DNA of 28,654 nt from a virus. The translations under genes and the position numbers were made by a program. The notes under the pieces are model-generated. The model made no database searches. It worked only from the letters and a program-made list of their open reading frames with translations, and was not told the DNA's origin. The stretch lies in IMG/VR virus record IMGVR_UViG_3300043466_001780, positions 1-28,654 of that record; one strand, given 5' to 3'. Below are positions 3,252 to 13,085 of this stretch, piece by piece. Numbering within the stretch: position 1 is the first letter of the stretch; each line of letters begins with the position of its first letter.

Positions 3252-3434
3252 CTCGTTCGCTTTGTTCTCGTACCAGATTGCCTTGGATATATCTTGCTCG
3301 GCAGAATCTTTATAGCCTGCACGCATCCGATATTTGAAAGCATTTATTTCGCAAAAGTGAATGAGTTTTTCCGTTCCGTAAACTTTCAACATCATTTCGA
3401 AAGTTTCGATTGATTGTTTTTTGTAATGGTTCAT
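3234..3434 (-). CDS. Small hypothetical protein
   Basis: 66 aa, highly charged and probably helical throughout (MNHYKKQSIETFEMMLK at the start, ending AIWYENKANELKESK). It is the first minus-strand gene left of the repeat-rich intergenic region and precedes TerS. A TACTTTTG -7 match at 3439-3446 would start transcription almost at the ATG, which would make the message leaderless. Function unknown. It could be a small regulator or a TerS accessory protein, but nothing in the sequence decides this. Confidence 0.65.
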   Translation of the reverse strand: MNHYKKQSIETFEMMLKVYGTEKLIHFCEINAFKYRMRAGYKDSAEQDISKAIWYENKANELKESK

Positions 3435-3438
3435 GGGG

Positions 3439-3446
3439 CAAAAGTA
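3439..3446 (-). promoter_or_regulatory. Candidate -7 element
   Basis: The minus strand reads TACTTTTG, a full match to TAnnTTTG, but I see no TTG at the expected -33 spacing. It lies 5 nt from the ATG at 3434, so use would give a leaderless transcript. Weak on its own. Confidence 0.3.
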
Positions 3447-3576
3447 GTATGTTTTACATTATTTTATTTTCATTTGTTTTATTTCATTTGAATTTATTTA
3501 GGTTTATTTGTAATTGTTTAATAATGAGTACTTTAGTATAATATGAATTTTTTCGTGTAGTAGGTTGTAGGTAGTT

Positions 3577-3608
3577 GTAGTAAGTTGAAAAATTCCTCAA
3601 CTTACTAC
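3577..3608. repeat. Perfect 12-bp inverted repeat with 8-bp spacer
   Basis: GTAGTAAGTTGA and TCAACTTACTAC are exact reverse complements separated by AAAATTCC. There is no U tract after it in either direction that would make it a clear terminator. Related single half-sites recur four times in the same intergenic region, which favours a protein-binding site. Confidence 0.75.
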
Positions 3609-3856
3609 GCTTTTGAAAAAAACTTCAAGTTATAACTCTCTAATAATAAATATATTATAATTATTAATTAATATATTTATTTATATTAGAGTAAGATAGT
3701 AGGTTGTTTTTGCATTTTTAACTTTTTTTAAATTTTTTTTCTTCAATTCAATTTTGAAAATTAATTTTGAAAAATAGTTTAAACGGCAAAAACTACCACC
3801 TCTACCTACTACAAATGCCGTAACTTATTGAAAATTAAACCGTTTAGTGTAGTAAG

Positions 3857-4261
3857 ATGAAAAACAACCCAACTACGACCAACCCCCTCGCCTCGGAAAG
3901 CAAAATTCAACAGGTAGCCATCATGGAAATTTGGAACAAATTGCCCCAAACTCGGCTTTGTTTGTTCCATGTTCCGAACGGAATGTTCTCAAATGCTCGT
4001 GAAGGGGCTAAATTTAAGGCTCAGGGCGTTATCTCAGGCGTTCCCGACCTTGTGTTCATCTGGCAGGGGAAAACGCATTACATCGAAGTTAAATGCGAAA
4101 AAGGCAAATTATCAGAAAATCAAAAAGCCCTGCACCAAAAATGGATGGAGCAGGGCGTTGAAGTTAAGGTAATGAGAAGTTCGGAGGAAATTATTCAGTT
4201 TGTCCGGAAATTGGTCGAACAAGATAGACCGTCCGGGGCTGAGAATTTCGCCTCTCAGTAA
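3857..4261 (+). CDS. VRR-NUC domain nuclease
   Basis: 134 aa, the length of a stand-alone phage VRR-NUC protein of the PD-(D/E)XK superfamily. Catalytic features visible: GVPD (61-64), then YIEVKC with E77 and K79, followed by SENQKALHQKW. These proteins cut DNA junctions or flaps during replication and recombination. The first codon follows a repeat copy (GTAGTAAG) without a gap, so the leader is the repeat region itself. The last 71 nt overlap the 3' end of the primase gene on the opposite strand. It is the only plus-strand gene left of 8073. Confidence 0.88.
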   Translation: MKNNPTTTNPLASESKIQQVAIMEIWNKLPQTRLCLFHVPNGMFSNAREGAKFKAQGVISGVPDLVFIWQGKTHYIEVKCEKGKLSENQKALHQKWMEQGVEVKVMRSSEEIIQFVRKLVEQDRPSGAENFASQ

Positions 4262-6356
4262 TTTTTAAAAATTTTAATCGGTTCAGGGCTTTTCCCAAAA
4301 CAACATTTGATATTCTTAGTTGGGTCTTGGATTGAAGAAAAGTTGCAATATCGGAGGCAGTCATGGTAATCGAGAATGGGTCACCCGGTTCGCATATTTC
4401 GTAATATTTGGAAAGTAGTTCCTCATTTACATCGGGTGCGGTGTTGTTTGACGAAATAAGTTGAAGAAGTTCGTTTTCCTCAGCATTAAGGAAAGGCGAT
4501 TCGCCTCCTGATGTATAGCGGTGGTATGCTTCAATTAAAGCGTCGGTCTTGTCAATAGCATAGTAAGTATTCAGGTCGATTGAAGAAGCGTGTATGGGAA
4601 CGATACGCCTGTTACTGCTGTCTGTGATAATATCGGAATCATTCGAAGTTCCGCAAAGCATAGCCAGTCGCTTTATATCCTCATGGTCTTTGCCGTATGC
4701 TCTCCTGAGTGTGGATGAAGTTTGTCCGGATTTGGCTTTCATGTACTTGTAATTAGTTGCCATTTTGCCACCCCACTCGTCATCGCATACTATCCATTTC
4801 ATGCTCATTAATATATCATCATCCTTGCCACCGGATAGGTCAGATACGGCAAAATAGTTAGTCAGTTCGTTTGGTAGTAAACGCTTCCAGAATTGAGTTT
4901 TACCCGTTCCGATTTTTTCACCATAAATAATTGGAATGATTGGGGGCGTTTCTTCACCAAGTGCCCCTGCTATCAATCCGAGGTAGAACTTAGTCAAAAA
5001 TACCTCAATATAATCAAACATAATATCACCGTTTGGCAAATGCCCATTATAACCGGATATAGTGTCCGCCATTTGCTTAATTACTCCAACAGGCTGTCTA
5101 TGGTCATTCTTTTGAATAAAATCCAATAGAGGGTGGTATGATGGTATTTCATGAGAGCGTAGATAAGTCGATAAAAGTTGCTGAGGTATTTTCGGCTCGA
5201 TTTTCTTCAATGCAATATACATTGAGTTCTCTTCTGTTTCGGTAAATACTTCCCCATTATTCTCTAAGCGGTTTGTAATTAAATTGCGTTGGAGTTTATA
5301 ATTTGAGTTAATAAATATCTCAATGGTATCGACTTGGGAAAAGTTTTTATCGGTATGGTTGGAGGCACTATCGAACGCCCTGTTGACGAGTTCTGTTGCC
5401 TCGTTCAGTTCCATTCCGTCCAACTTGGTTATGACATCAATAACCGATTCTTTTGTACGCCCTTGCTTTTTTGCGTGATAAACGGCTTGAAGTGTTCGCT
5501 TCGTTTTTGGTGAAGTTATGTTTATTCCTGCCTCTTTGCAATAGTACATGAATGTACCTAATTTGATACCTTGCCCACCCGATTTCAGGAATGCGTTGTA
5601 ATGCTTATCACAATTAGCCGGGTCGTATTTTTCGCTGAATTGGCTAACGGTATGAAAGTAGGTTCGACCTGCTTCGCCAAAATAATCGGTGAGGGCAAAG
5701 CCAATATTTCTCCATAAATAGTATTGACCCTGAGTTAAGTCGATACGATTAGAAACGATTTGCTCAATGATAAATTCAAAATCAGACGAAGCGACAAAAT
5801 CTGGATGGGTAAGTTTGGGCTGGTCTTTTTTGGGAATGTATTTTTTGAAAATACTGGAACGGTTATTGAAAAATAATCCCGGGTCGTATGATGCAAATCG
5901 GGTACGGCTTACATCCTTGCAGGAACGGTCTATTCCTATTTGGTACTGCTGGGAATAATATTTTTCCAACCCTTCGAAAGCGTCTAAGTGCTTTGCCGGG
6001 TCGATTCGGACAATTACGGCTAATCCATTACCCCGGATTGATTTGAAGCAGGCATAAGTGTATGGGTCAGACCATAGTTTATTTGCGACATCAAGCATAT
6101 TTACTGGCTCGATATTATCAATGTCAATGCAGATGAATCCTGAGTGGGCAATTAATCCGTTTGCATTACGCTCTTTAAATTGACCTGATATAGTTACAAG
6201 TGGAACGGTTTTTTTAAGTTCGGCATCCTGAGTTTCTCGAATCTTTTCAACCTGTTCCTTCCAAGTGCCGTTTTTTACATCGGCAATGAATTGGTCAATC
6301 AGCGTGGTGGCAGTTGACTTGGTATCGTTAATGTTGCGGTAAGAAGAGATTGTCAT
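4191..6356 (-). CDS. Primase-helicase (BT4734-like / PriCT-2 / VirE ATPase)
   Basis: 721 aa. An N-terminal BT4734-like, AEP-type primase domain has FICIDID (74-80), SIRGNGLAV (106-114) and DVSRTRFASYDP (148-159). A PriCT-2-like helical region lies at about 208-278 (YYLWRNIGFAL to YYCKEAGI). The C-terminal VirE/D5-like helicase ATPase has Walker A GEKIGTGKT (479-487), Walker B WIVCDDEW (521-528), sensor CGTSND (568-573) and NRRIVPI (583-589). The same polypeptide should prime and unwind DNA. The start at 6356 overlaps the stop of the helicase gene upstream. With no polymerase in the window, the phage probably uses the host replicase. Confidence 0.88.
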   Translation of the reverse strand: MTISSYRNINDTKSTATTLIDQFIADVKNGTWKEQVEKIRETQDAELKKTVPLVTISGQFKERNANGLIAHSGFICIDIDNIEPVNMLDVANKLWSDPYTYACFKSIRGNGLAVIVRIDPAKHLDAFEGLEKYYSQQYQIGIDRSCKDVSRTRFASYDPGLFFNNRSSIFKKYIPKKDQPKLTHPDFVASSDFEFIIEQIVSNRIDLTQGQYYLWRNIGFALTDYFGEAGRTYFHTVSQFSEKYDPANCDKHYNAFLKSGGQGIKLGTFMYYCKEAGINITSPKTKRTLQAVYHAKKQGRTKESVIDVITKLDGMELNEATELVNRAFDSASNHTDKNFSQVDTIEIFINSNYKLQRNLITNRLENNGEVFTETEENSMYIALKKIEPKIPQQLLSTYLRSHEIPSYHPLLDFIQKNDHRQPVGVIKQMADTISGYNGHLPNGDIMFDYIEVFLTKFYLGLIAGALGEETPPIIPIIYGEKIGTGKTQFWKRLLPNELTNYFAVSDLSGGKDDDILMSMKWIVCDDEWGGKMATNYKYMKAKSGQTSSTLRRAYGKDHEDIKRLAMLCGTSNDSDIITDSSNRRIVPIHASSIDLNTYYAIDKTDALIEAYHRYTSGGESPFLNAEENELLQLISSNNTAPDVNEELLSKYYEICEPGDPFSITMTASDIATFLQSKTQLRISNVVLGKALNRLKFLKITERRNSQPRTVYLVRPISGQTE

Positions 6357-7708
6357 CGGTTATATCTTTGTTGTAGTTCAAGTTGAATTTTTACCCATCC
6401 TTTTTTGTACCCTTTGATTTTCTGATATTGCCAAAGTTCATCAGTTGTCATTTGTGATGGTCTTTTATTTAAGTGTTCAGGTATTGTGGGTTTGACAAGT
6501 TCGGCAAATTCGGCAAATACTGGAGTAATTACTTTTTGTTCTTTTTGGTGTCCGCATTCTGGGCAAATTGAAGTAGATACGAGCATCATTGCCTCGCATG
6601 ATTCGCATAAACGGACAGGGAAGGCATTTTGTTTGTCGGTTTTCTTCTTTTTTTCCGTTAGTGACCAATCTCGTTCAATATCATACCACCCATGCCTGAG
6701 TACATTATCTCCATGGTCAATGATAACAAGGTCTTTTTTATTTGGGGCAGGTCTTAATCCACGCCCGACCATTTGAAGGTATAGTGCGAGTGATTGCGTT
6801 GCTCGGTTCAAAATTACGCATGATATGTGAGGCATATCGAAGCCCTCCGTAAATAATCCAACATTGCACACGCCTTGAGTTAATCCAGAACGGAAACGGG
6901 CTATTGTGTTATCCCTAATTAGTTGGGGCGTTTCACCGTCTAAGTGTTCGCAGTTGATATTTGCGTTTTGAAAGGCTTTGGCAGTATTTTTGGAGTGTTC
7001 AACATTGACACAAAAGACAATAAATGGGCGGTCTTTGGCAAACTTGATATAATTGTCAACCACGCCAGCGTATAAGGTGCTTTTATTGAATTTGGAATAA
7101 AGTTCGGCAGAGTTGAAGTCACCTCCAATAGTTTTTACATTGGTAAGGTCAATATGTTCCTTACTTGCGAACTTGCGAACGGTGCAAAGGAAATCGAGTG
7201 AAGTTAGGTGGCTAATACTTATCGGGTTGACTATATCTTTAAAAATATCCCCTAATGGCTTACCGTCAAGTCGTGACGGTGTGGCTGTCATTCCAACGAC
7301 AAAGGCGTGAGGATAATGGTCTAATATAATCCGGTAAGAATTTGCCATTGCGAGGTGGCATTCGTCAATAAATATAATGTCGGGTGGACAAATTAGGCTT
7401 AACCTATTCCGGAGCGTTTGTACCGATGCGACATTTAGATTTAATGATGGCTTTGTATTGCTACCTTGAATTAATCCTGGTGCAAGCCCGAACGATTCGA
7501 GGCGTTCCGTTGCCTGTGTAAGTAGTTCTTTTCGATGGGCAAGGAATAGAATAGATTTGCCTTTAGCAGTTGCAGAATGAATCATACTTGCAACTATCGT
7601 AGTTTTACCGCCCCCAGTCGGCACGCATAGAATTGAGCGTTTGTGCCGTTGTATGCTGGCTCGGAGCAGGTCGATTGCCTGTATTTGGTATGGTCTTAAG
7701 GTTTGCAT
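6353..7708 (-). CDS. DEAD/DEAH-box superfamily 2 helicase
   Basis: 451 aa. Q-like start LRPYQIQA, motif I PTGGGKTT (30-37), motif II DECH (115-118), motif III TATPSR (141-146), then GLFTEGFDMP and QMVGRGLRP in the second RecA lobe. A four-cysteine zinc ribbon (CESC, then CPEC) follows near residue 370-395. This layout is that of phage and mobile-element helicases used in replication or recombination. It overlaps the primase start by 4 nt and overlaps the end of the small gene upstream, so the three are one operon. Confidence 0.92.
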   Translation of the reverse strand: MQTLRPYQIQAIDLLRASIQRHKRSILCVPTGGGKTTIVASMIHSATAKGKSILFLAHRKELLTQATERLESFGLAPGLIQGSNTKPSLNLNVASVQTLRNRLSLICPPDIIFIDECHLAMANSYRIILDHYPHAFVVGMTATPSRLDGKPLGDIFKDIVNPISISHLTSLDFLCTVRKFASKEHIDLTNVKTIGGDFNSAELYSKFNKSTLYAGVVDNYIKFAKDRPFIVFCVNVEHSKNTAKAFQNANINCEHLDGETPQLIRDNTIARFRSGLTQGVCNVGLFTEGFDMPHISCVILNRATQSLALYLQMVGRGLRPAPNKKDLVIIDHGDNVLRHGWYDIERDWSLTEKKKKTDKQNAFPVRLCESCEAMMLVSTSICPECGHQKEQKVITPVFAEFAELVKPTIPEHLNKRPSQMTTDELWQYQKIKGYKKGWVKIQLELQQRYNR

Positions 7709-7881
7709 AGAATTGGTTTGCCATCAACAAGGTCAAAGTGAATTAAACCAGATGTAAGTATTTCAATAGTTACATCGTTAATCTTAACCCATTTTATCCA
7801 TTTGTCGGTTGCAGTTTCATACATCCCAACTTTGACCAGTTTCAGGTCTGAATCGATTGTTTTGATTTTTAAGTAGTACAT
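7696..7881 (-). CDS. Small hypothetical protein leading the helicase operon
   Basis: 61 aa, beta-rich in appearance (MYYLKIKTIDSDLKLVKVG), ending VDGKPILCKP. Its 3' end overlaps the helicase start by 13 nt. It is the first gene behind the structured RNA leader at 7896-7984, whose U tract ends about 15 nt before this ATG. Function unknown. The position would make it the first product affected by any attenuation in that leader. Confidence 0.65.
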   Translation of the reverse strand: MYYLKIKTIDSDLKLVKVGMYETATDKWIKWVKINDVTIEILTSGLIHFDLVDGKPILCKP

Positions 7882-7895
7882 AATTTTGAGTCAAT

Positions 7896-7984
7896 AAAAA
7901 AGGGCTGAACAGAACGGTGCAAGCATTCTATTCAACCCTGAGTTTATCCGATGAAGGAATATCGTTTAGGCTCTTGCACAGCCT
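7896..7984 (-). ncRNA. Structured leader or small RNA: two hairpins with complementary loops, terminator-like end
   Basis: Read on the minus strand. Hairpin 1 (7984-7968) is AGGCU, loop GUGCAAG, AGCCU. After 29 nt, hairpin 2 (7938-7902) pairs GGGUUGAAUAGAA with UUCUGUUCAGCCC, 13 bp with two G-U pairs, and its 11-nt loop contains CUUGCAC. The loops GUGCAAG and CUUGCAC are exact complements over 7 nt, so a kissing interaction is possible. Six U follow hairpin 2. The two wobble positions are C-A mismatches on the plus strand, so the RNA belongs to the minus strand. A TATTTTTG -7 match at 8002-8009 would start it about 10 nt upstream. It could be an attenuator of the helicase operon or a free RNA of about 100 nt. 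It matches no class I know. Confidence 0.6.
7902..7938 (-). terminator. Terminator-like hairpin with U6
   Basis: A 13-bp stem (two G-U), 11-nt loop and immediate U6 on the minus strand. It lies between the candidate promoter and the first gene of the helicase operon, a position expected for attenuation and not for simple gene-end termination. Confidence 0.6.
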
Positions 7985-7996
7985 GTATTTTGTATC

Positions 7997-8048
7997 TAAC
8001 GCAAAAATAAATTAAAAGTTTTGTAACCTTTGTGAAAATTGTGCGTTA
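7997..8048. promoter_or_regulatory. Divergent promoter region bracketed by an inverted repeat
   Basis: TAACGCA (7997-8003) and TGCGTTA (8042-8048) are exact inverted copies 38 bp apart; three more bases outside the repeat core partly match. The left arm touches the minus-strand -7 element TATTTTTG (8002-8009). A weaker plus-strand element, TAACCTTTG (8024-8032, one base longer than consensus), sits between the arms about 40 nt before the 8073 start. A regulator binding both arms could control both operons. No clear -33 box is visible for either promoter. Confidence 0.45.
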
Positions 8049-12262: not shown

Positions 12263-12625
12263 ATGATACAAAAAAGCGAATTAACACAAGTACCCGTTGA
12301 GCAAAGAGTTCCGGGGAGGATTTATGGGGTGGCGGATGGATTGAATGGTGAATTGCACAGAATGGCTTTTCACAAAAAGGGGCACTACGATACTGCTGAT
12401 GCCAGTTGGACTTACTGGTTCGCCCTACCCGAATCAATGCTACCAGTGCGGGAATTGCCAGACCAGATTAAATTAGACTTGAATGAGTGGAGTTATTCTT
12501 ATTCGAATAGCGTTATTTTATTGCATCGAAAAAAAATACGCCCTGAATTAACCATCCCATCCGGAACAAAATCGGAGCAGATTGCGGAACTTGAGAAAAT
12601 TCTGGCTGAATTGAAACAATCATGA
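12263..12625 (+). CDS. Hypothetical protein
   Basis: 120 aa. The N-terminal part (VEQRVPGRIYGVADGLNGEL, then ASWTYWFALPESMLP) looks like a small beta domain. The last 30 residues, TIPSGTKSEQIAELEKILAE, form a helix. It overlaps the HTH gene downstream by 4 nt. A short leader with AAACGATTAAAACT precedes the ATG. Function unknown. Confidence 0.68.
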   Translation: MIQKSELTQVPVEQRVPGRIYGVADGLNGELHRMAFHKKGHYDTADASWTYWFALPESMLPVRELPDQIKLDLNEWSYSYSNSVILLHRKKIRPELTIPSGTKSEQIAELEKILAELKQS

Positions 12626-12816
12626 CCTACCCAGACCTAATTCACAAAATCCGAGCAACACGATTACTACTCGGGTTGAATCAATCGCAAATGGCTGAGA
12701 AACTCAACATGACCGAACAGCAATATTCACGAATGGAACGCCAAGTAAATACTTTGAGCGTTCCGAGGCTGATGGAAATAGTTAAGATTTTGGAGATAAC
12801 GATAACATTGAAATGA
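12622..12816 (+). CDS. Cro/C1-type helix-turn-helix regulator
   Basis: 64 aa, essentially one HTH domain. IHKIRATRLLLGLNQSQMAE contains helices 1-2 and the first HTH helix, and KLNMTEQQYSRMERQ the recognition helix. The alternating hydrophobic SVPRLMEIVKILEI closes the domain. It is the only clear phage repressor-like protein in the window and could control the divergent promoters or the inverted-repeat cassettes. ATGA overlaps join it to both neighbours. There is no sign of lysogeny genes beside it. Confidence 0.86.
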   Translation: MTYPDLIHKIRATRLLLGLNQSQMAEKLNMTEQQYSRMERQVNTLSVPRLMEIVKILEITITLK

Positions 12817-13085
12817 ACCAGAACCAATTAAAATACCGACTGCGTGATAAGCAGAACCGATTGACTGACACTTGGATGCCAGTTACAAAAGAATTAATCC
12901 TGAGCGGTATTCAATATCGTGAAATAGTCGCAATCAGACGAGCAATTGCGTGGAATCTGAGGCGAAAAGGATTGACCTGTGAAGAGATTGGTGCAATTTA
13001 CAACCAACACCCCAGCACTATTTGTCATGGCTTAGACAAGGTCGATTTAAGTTTGGTGGAAGCGGTTAAGGTGTTTGAGATTTAA
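12813..13085 (+). CDS. DnaA domain IV-like DNA-binding protein (first copy)
   Basis: 90 aa. The C-terminal half reads REIVAIRRAIAWNLRRKG, then LTCEEIGAIYNQHPSTICHG, which follows the pattern of DnaA domain IV (the DnaA-box binding HTH): conserved arginine-rich helix, EIG turn and an H-x-T recognition helix in place of DHTTV. There is no ATPase domain. Such free-standing domains in phages probably bind DNA at an origin or promoter. A related protein is encoded at 13922, on the far side of the methyltransferase gene. Confidence 0.78.
   Translation: MNQNQLKYRLRDKQNRLTDTWMPVTKELILSGIQYREIVAIRRAIAWNLRRKGLTCEEIGAIYNQHPSTICHGLDKVDLSLVEAVKVFEI

Follow-up and report, generated by a model that had tools for sequence, protein, structure and literature searches.

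A putative leader RNA of phage replication operons in which an upstream hairpin and a terminator hairpin carry matching loop codes

The window analysed here, the whole of a 28,654-nt virus record (IMGVR_UViG_3300043466_001780), carries on its minus strand a replication operon of a small ORF, a helicase gene and a primase gene, and a compact RNA element (7984-7896, minus strand) lies between a promoter box and the first of these genes (Table 1). TAnnTTTG boxes are an established Bacteroidota promoter type, and the one in the window, TATTTTTG, ends 17 nt ahead of the element. The element itself consists of a first hairpin (H1), a linker containing a weak second hairpin (H2), a terminator hairpin (H3) and a U6 tract, and the small ORF starts 15 nt past this tract. 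The first-pass annotation of this DNA had placed the RNA between a -7 element and the replication operon, and had described two hairpins with exactly complementary 7-nt loops, one of them a perfect 5-bp hairpin bearing the loop GUGCAAG, and a U6 stretch following the terminator stem; sequence and fold bear this out (box 8009-8002, H1 pairing A7984-U7980 / A7972-U7968, U-tract 7901-7896, ORF start 7881). Its terminator stem of 13 bp with two G-U pairs is corrected to 16 bp (7939-7924 / 7916-7901) with three such pairs (7935/7905, 7930/7910 and 7925/7915). The folding energy of the window RNA lies 4.6 SD below that of shuffled sequences, and none of 200 shuffles was equally stable.

Table 1. Features of the RNA element and of the operon downstream of it, in window coordinates.
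Feature	Position	Strand	Basis or remark
-7 promoter element TATTTTTG, Bacteroidota-type TAnnTTTG	8002..8009	-	sequence
H1 5' arm (AGGCU)	7980..7984	-	fold and family covariation
H1 loop GUGCAAG, first strand of the 7-bp kiss	7973..7979	-	seven codes in the family, all matched
H1 3' arm (AGCCU)	7968..7972	-	fold and family covariation
Linker, 28 nt, containing small hairpin H2	7940..7967	-	
H2, UCC / GGA	7958-7956 / 7949-7947	-	longer UUUCC..GGAAA in relatives
Terminator hairpin H3, 5' arm	7924..7939	-	fold; family covariation
H3 loop CUUGCAC, second strand of the kiss	7917..7923	-	matches the H1 loop exactly in all 16 copies
Terminator hairpin H3, 3' arm	7901..7916	-	fold
U6 tract of the intrinsic terminator	7896..7901	-	sequence
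61-aa ORF, first gene past the terminator	7696..7881	-	no family match
ResIII/DEAD helicase of the operon	6353..7708	-	Pfam PF04851 2e-30, PF00271 1e-14
Primase/VapE-type protein	4191..6356	-	BT4734-like_N, PriCT_2 and VapE-like domains

The element could not be assigned to a known RNA class. Against Rfam 15, the window gave no match at the gathering cut-off and only chance-level matches at E values up to 10, in agreement with the earlier remark that it resembles no known riboswitch class. Relatives were collected by a pattern search with the window loops, which retrieved four more contigs with identical loops, and by helicase searches, which yielded further contigs with other loops in their leaders; with further pattern searches and a helicase of another type, the set grew to 16 copies of the RNA, carried by 15 related viral contigs that are all metagenomic. 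A search via the 61-aa ORF for extra members returned only contigs that were already known. Among cultured phages, blastn with family members gave chance or tRNA matches only, and six regions near the helicase or primase in cultured Flavobacterium, Cellulophaga and Nonlabens phages held nothing convincing. One pattern scan of bacterial genomes produced 11 matches, the structure being present in none, and model R1 of the RNA found nothing in 395 genomes from the class of a Polaribacter MAG, a search that was insensitive under its strict filters. R1 was built on L007-type members and detected the window type only with filters off (E about 0.002). Primase relatives do occur in Flavobacterium, Cellulophaga and Nonlabens phages and, together with the TAnnTTTG box, point to a Bacteroidota host.

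Across the family, seven 7-nt loop codes occur (GUGCAAG, GGGCAAG, GUCAGAG, CUGGCAG, GUAGCAG, GUGGAAG and GUGAGAG), and in all 16 copies the terminator loop is the exact Watson-Crick reverse complement of the H1 loop, with a spacing of 48-52 nt between the two strands of the kiss. Alignment A5 was fitted to the H1/H2/H3 structure with the kiss left out of the fitting, so that covariation in the kiss constitutes an independent test. On this alignment the kiss helix is 98.8% paired, four of its seven pairs have changed on both sides and G-U never occurs; the one unpaired case stems from misalignment of L006, and direct reading of the sequences found the kiss intact in 12 of 12. Only two of the seven pairs are invariant, the conserved loop letters being AG/CU at one end only. 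The codes are connected by a minimum spanning tree of nine compensated substitutions, a minimum counted over codes and not along a phylogeny, as related contigs are not independent. Between L006 and the window, one compensated pair lies in the kiss and another in H1. H1 is 98.3% paired across the family, with three of five pairs changed on both sides; 13 of the 17 modelled pairs of H3 have likewise changed on both sides, and H2 is 91.7% paired with changes that are partly one-sided. For the whole structure on alignment A5 the covariation score was 0.631 versus 0.214 +/- 0.023 in shuffles, none of the 500 shuffles reaching the observed value, and shifting the partner by one column lowered it to 0.157 or less. 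Variable sites made up 8 of the 14 kiss positions versus 19 of the 63 others outside the inner terminator stem. A search of 2.1 Mb of shuffled sequence for a 7-nt loop-loop pair 35-75 nt apart, run with much weaker stem limits, gave 13 matches.

A chance loop match, which the first-pass annotation had judged unlikely, is ruled out by the covariation and the shuffled-sequence search, since the loops of the relatives change yet stay matched. Independent variation of the loops among homologues was looked for, and strict covariation was seen instead, with compensatory changes in H1, in the terminator stem and in the kiss. The stems contain 52 G-U pairs across the family when read on the RNA strand, which upholds the earlier assignment of the pairing to the minus strand and disfavours a DNA cruciform or a plus-strand RNA, where these pairs would become C-A mismatches. 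The kiss is confined to the loops; positions flanking the 7-mer pair inconsistently, which leaves a strand-exchange antiterminator longer than the kiss unsupported. Linker length is 24-30 nt in 15 of the 16 copies, the value for L001 being mis-measured at an inner H3 mismatch (the L001 sequence itself has a normal terminator stem), and the U-rich tract is likewise present in 15 of 16, missing only from the second copy in L058. Judged from these sequence comparisons, we conclude that the loop-loop pairing is real and that the element represents a structured RNA family without an Rfam match.

The surroundings of the RNA are consistent with a position in the leader of replication operons. In 14 of the 16 copies H1 is preceded, at a distance of 14-33 nt (14-16 nt in nine), by a TAnnTTTG box, and no such box was found inside the RNA or between it and the ATG in any of the 16; as far as the TAnnTTTG consensus goes, transcription of the operon must therefore pass the terminator. 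The helicase, or a small ORF preceding it, has its ATG 4-21 nt past the terminator stem (a figure of 23 nt for L001 derives from the mis-measured stem), the 61-aa ORF being missing in several relatives in which the helicase ATG comes first. The gene upstream of the RNA is divergent in nine helicase-group contigs and out of range in the others. The same RNA stands ahead of a second DEAD/ResIII helicase type in L021 and L027-L030, and L008 and L028 have the kissing RNA in common while their downstream helicase types differ, suggesting that the leader moves as a module. In L058 and L060 it lies behind a RusA-like gene and ahead of a DnaB-type replication module that is non-homologous to the helicase operon (the RusA and DnaB names were read from translations and not from a profile search), and the RNA thus appears to track operon position and not one particular gene. 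The relatives L013 and L014 have the helicase without such a leader, a small ORF starting MKKRKTIEISNKVL standing in its place. In L009, a methionine-type tRNA gene (2633-2705) is located between the promoter and the kissing RNA, and the same holds for L011 and L061. The related L010 lacks a tRNA at this site and has the promoter and the sequence GCGGGnnAGAGC in common with L009, a comparison that suggests insertion or loss of the tRNA at that point.

We consider it probable, if well short of assured, that the RNA is the 5' leader of the replication operon and serves in cis as a transcription attenuator with a built-in kiss. RNA polymerase would start a few nucleotides before H1, which would fold first, and when the 5' arm and loop of the terminator emerge, all seven loop nucleotides would be available to the H1 loop. 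As long as the kiss held, completion of the terminator stem would be delayed or strained and transcription would read through into the replication genes; were the terminator to close fully first, polymerase would halt at the U-tract, releasing a compact RNA about 95 nt long. Predicted folds of the growing transcript show that in seven of eight members the most stable pairing uses both loop sequences until the 3' arm has been transcribed, and that the finished terminator wins once this arm is complete; these predictions ignore pseudoknots, and with H1 folded the pairing would be the loop-loop kiss. By simple A-form counting, a stacked H1-kiss-H3 rod would measure about 73-87 A. The linker with H2 folded spans, on a rough estimate, only about the length of this rod, so that the kiss is expected to strain closure of the terminator, and on this model the kiss and the complete terminator should compete. 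Termination would then be partial, the kiss altering its efficiency, presumably in the direction of read-through, and the balance may be set by a phage or host factor or by transcription speed.

A related arrangement is known from the guanidine-IV riboswitch (GGAM-1 or mepA), for which a kissing loop involving the terminator hairpin has been proposed to give read-through (PMC11611296, PMC7736828) and in which growth of the terminator stem is proposed to strain the kissing loop (PMC11611296). Both are leader RNAs in which a kiss or pseudoknot involves the terminator hairpin, here a kiss of 7 bp in all copies, and it is this precedent, together with the rod and linker geometry, that leads us to favour attenuation in cis with a kiss that promotes read-through. 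Several points speak against it. In principle, a 7-bp kiss and a complete terminator can coexist; the second copy in L058 is folded but devoid of a U-tract, and its fold may have a role beyond termination; and the helicases of L013 and L014 do without the leader.

The two copies in the L058 record were found with model R1. They share the code GUCAGAG/CUCUGAC, and their stems differ and resemble different subfamilies. Copy 2 (3376-3471, minus strand) has kept H1, H2, H3 and the kiss, ends GGGGAUAACUAUG with no U-tract, and lies directly ahead of an ORF that weakly matches replisome organizers. It is either a decayed terminator or a fold with a function besides terminating, and the shared code together with the missing U-tract leaves room for a trans or non-terminator role. 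One such role would be for the terminated RNA of about 95 nt to act in trans, its loops kissing the same loops on the nascent leaders of other phage copies, with self-limitation of the replication genes or superinfection immunity as the outcome and the loop code as the determinant of specificity. We regard this as rather unlikely, even though loop codes diverge among otherwise similar leaders and the two L058 leaders combine one code with different stems. The code shared by these two happens to be the family's most widespread and could simply be ancestral, the complement lies within the same molecule so that an intramolecular kiss should win, the exact 7-nt code showed no enrichment elsewhere in its own genome in five records, and the PF00589 profile detected no integrase in five records, some of them partial.

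Plasmid kissing antisense RNAs and the CI RNA of phage P4 offer models for such action in trans. In ColE1, RNA I and RNA II carry fully complementary hairpin loops of about 7 nt whose codes vary between relatives; those form an intermolecular sense-antisense pair, whereas here a single molecule contains both loops. The C4 antisense RNA of phage P1 is a short phage RNA comparable to the CI RNA of P4. In P4, CI RNA brings about termination within the replication operon of the phage itself (PMC4825925), which offers a precedent for action in trans. CI shares with our element its short length, a link to premature termination ahead of replication genes and RNA-RNA pairing (PMC4825925), and the RNA described here likewise lies in a replication-operon leader; unlike CI, which pairs with separate sites on either side of itself, it finds its complement in its own terminator loop, and it matches no Rfam family. 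A second precedent is the IsrK RNA of prophage Gifsy-1, for which a single promoter gives both a short terminated RNA and a longer read-through transcript on which the short form acts (PMC4825925); cis kissing of the terminator loop does not feature in the passages considered.

Less probable still is a constitutive terminator that yields a stable free RNA, the kiss fastening the 5' hairpin to the 3' hairpin, as protection against nucleases or for host-protein binding, and having no part in cis regulation. The strong terminator and the low folding energies relative to shuffles would suit such an RNA, as would a compact fold that begins almost at the expected transcription start in the nine copies with a box 14-16 nt before H1; a full stop would, however, silence replication genes that have no other visible promoter, and the terminator tract is missing from copy 2 of L058. 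A riboswitch binding a small molecule at the kissing interface, in the manner of guanidine-II or guanidine-IV, appears improbable. The guanidine-IV layout, with a hairpin loop that pairs with the terminator hairpin, is matched, but the loops there form a highly conserved ligand pocket, with required loop nucleotides that are 97% conserved (PMC7736828), whereas here they drift yet stay complementary, with no letters conserved except AG/CU at one end. Seven codes thus argue against identity with guanidine-IV, from which the element also differs by its third small hairpin and by preceding phage replication genes and not mostly transporters, and the lack of an Rfam match counts against a riboswitch as well. 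A packaging RNA like the pRNA of phi29, whose molecules are linked into a ring by complementary loops, would also be one small phage RNA with two complementary loops, but it can practically be dismissed given the location in a replication-gene leader, the ordinary type of terminase large subunit in this phage and the fact that one of the two hairpins is a terminator.

The replication genes of these Bacteroidota-type phages appear to follow a structured RNA switch outside the curated families. More tentatively, we suggest a new phage RNA family in which an upstream hairpin reads the terminator loop by a drifting, lineage-specific seven-letter code, and which would control the start of replication in cis and possibly, in trans, act against related phages. 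The natural and always-matched loop codes represent ready-made compensatory mutants, with which one may ask if an intrinsic terminator can be governed by a kissing loop that has no ligand pocket, and if leader RNAs serve as compatibility determinants between related phages.

Two further observations concern the window outside the operon leader. At 12622-13085, a small HTH_3 repressor-like ORF is followed by one that weakly matches a DnaA C-terminal domain. The intergenic stretch 3532-3670 contains a perfect 12-bp hairpin (GUAGUAAGUUGA/UCAACUUACUAC) that is possibly a two-way terminator.
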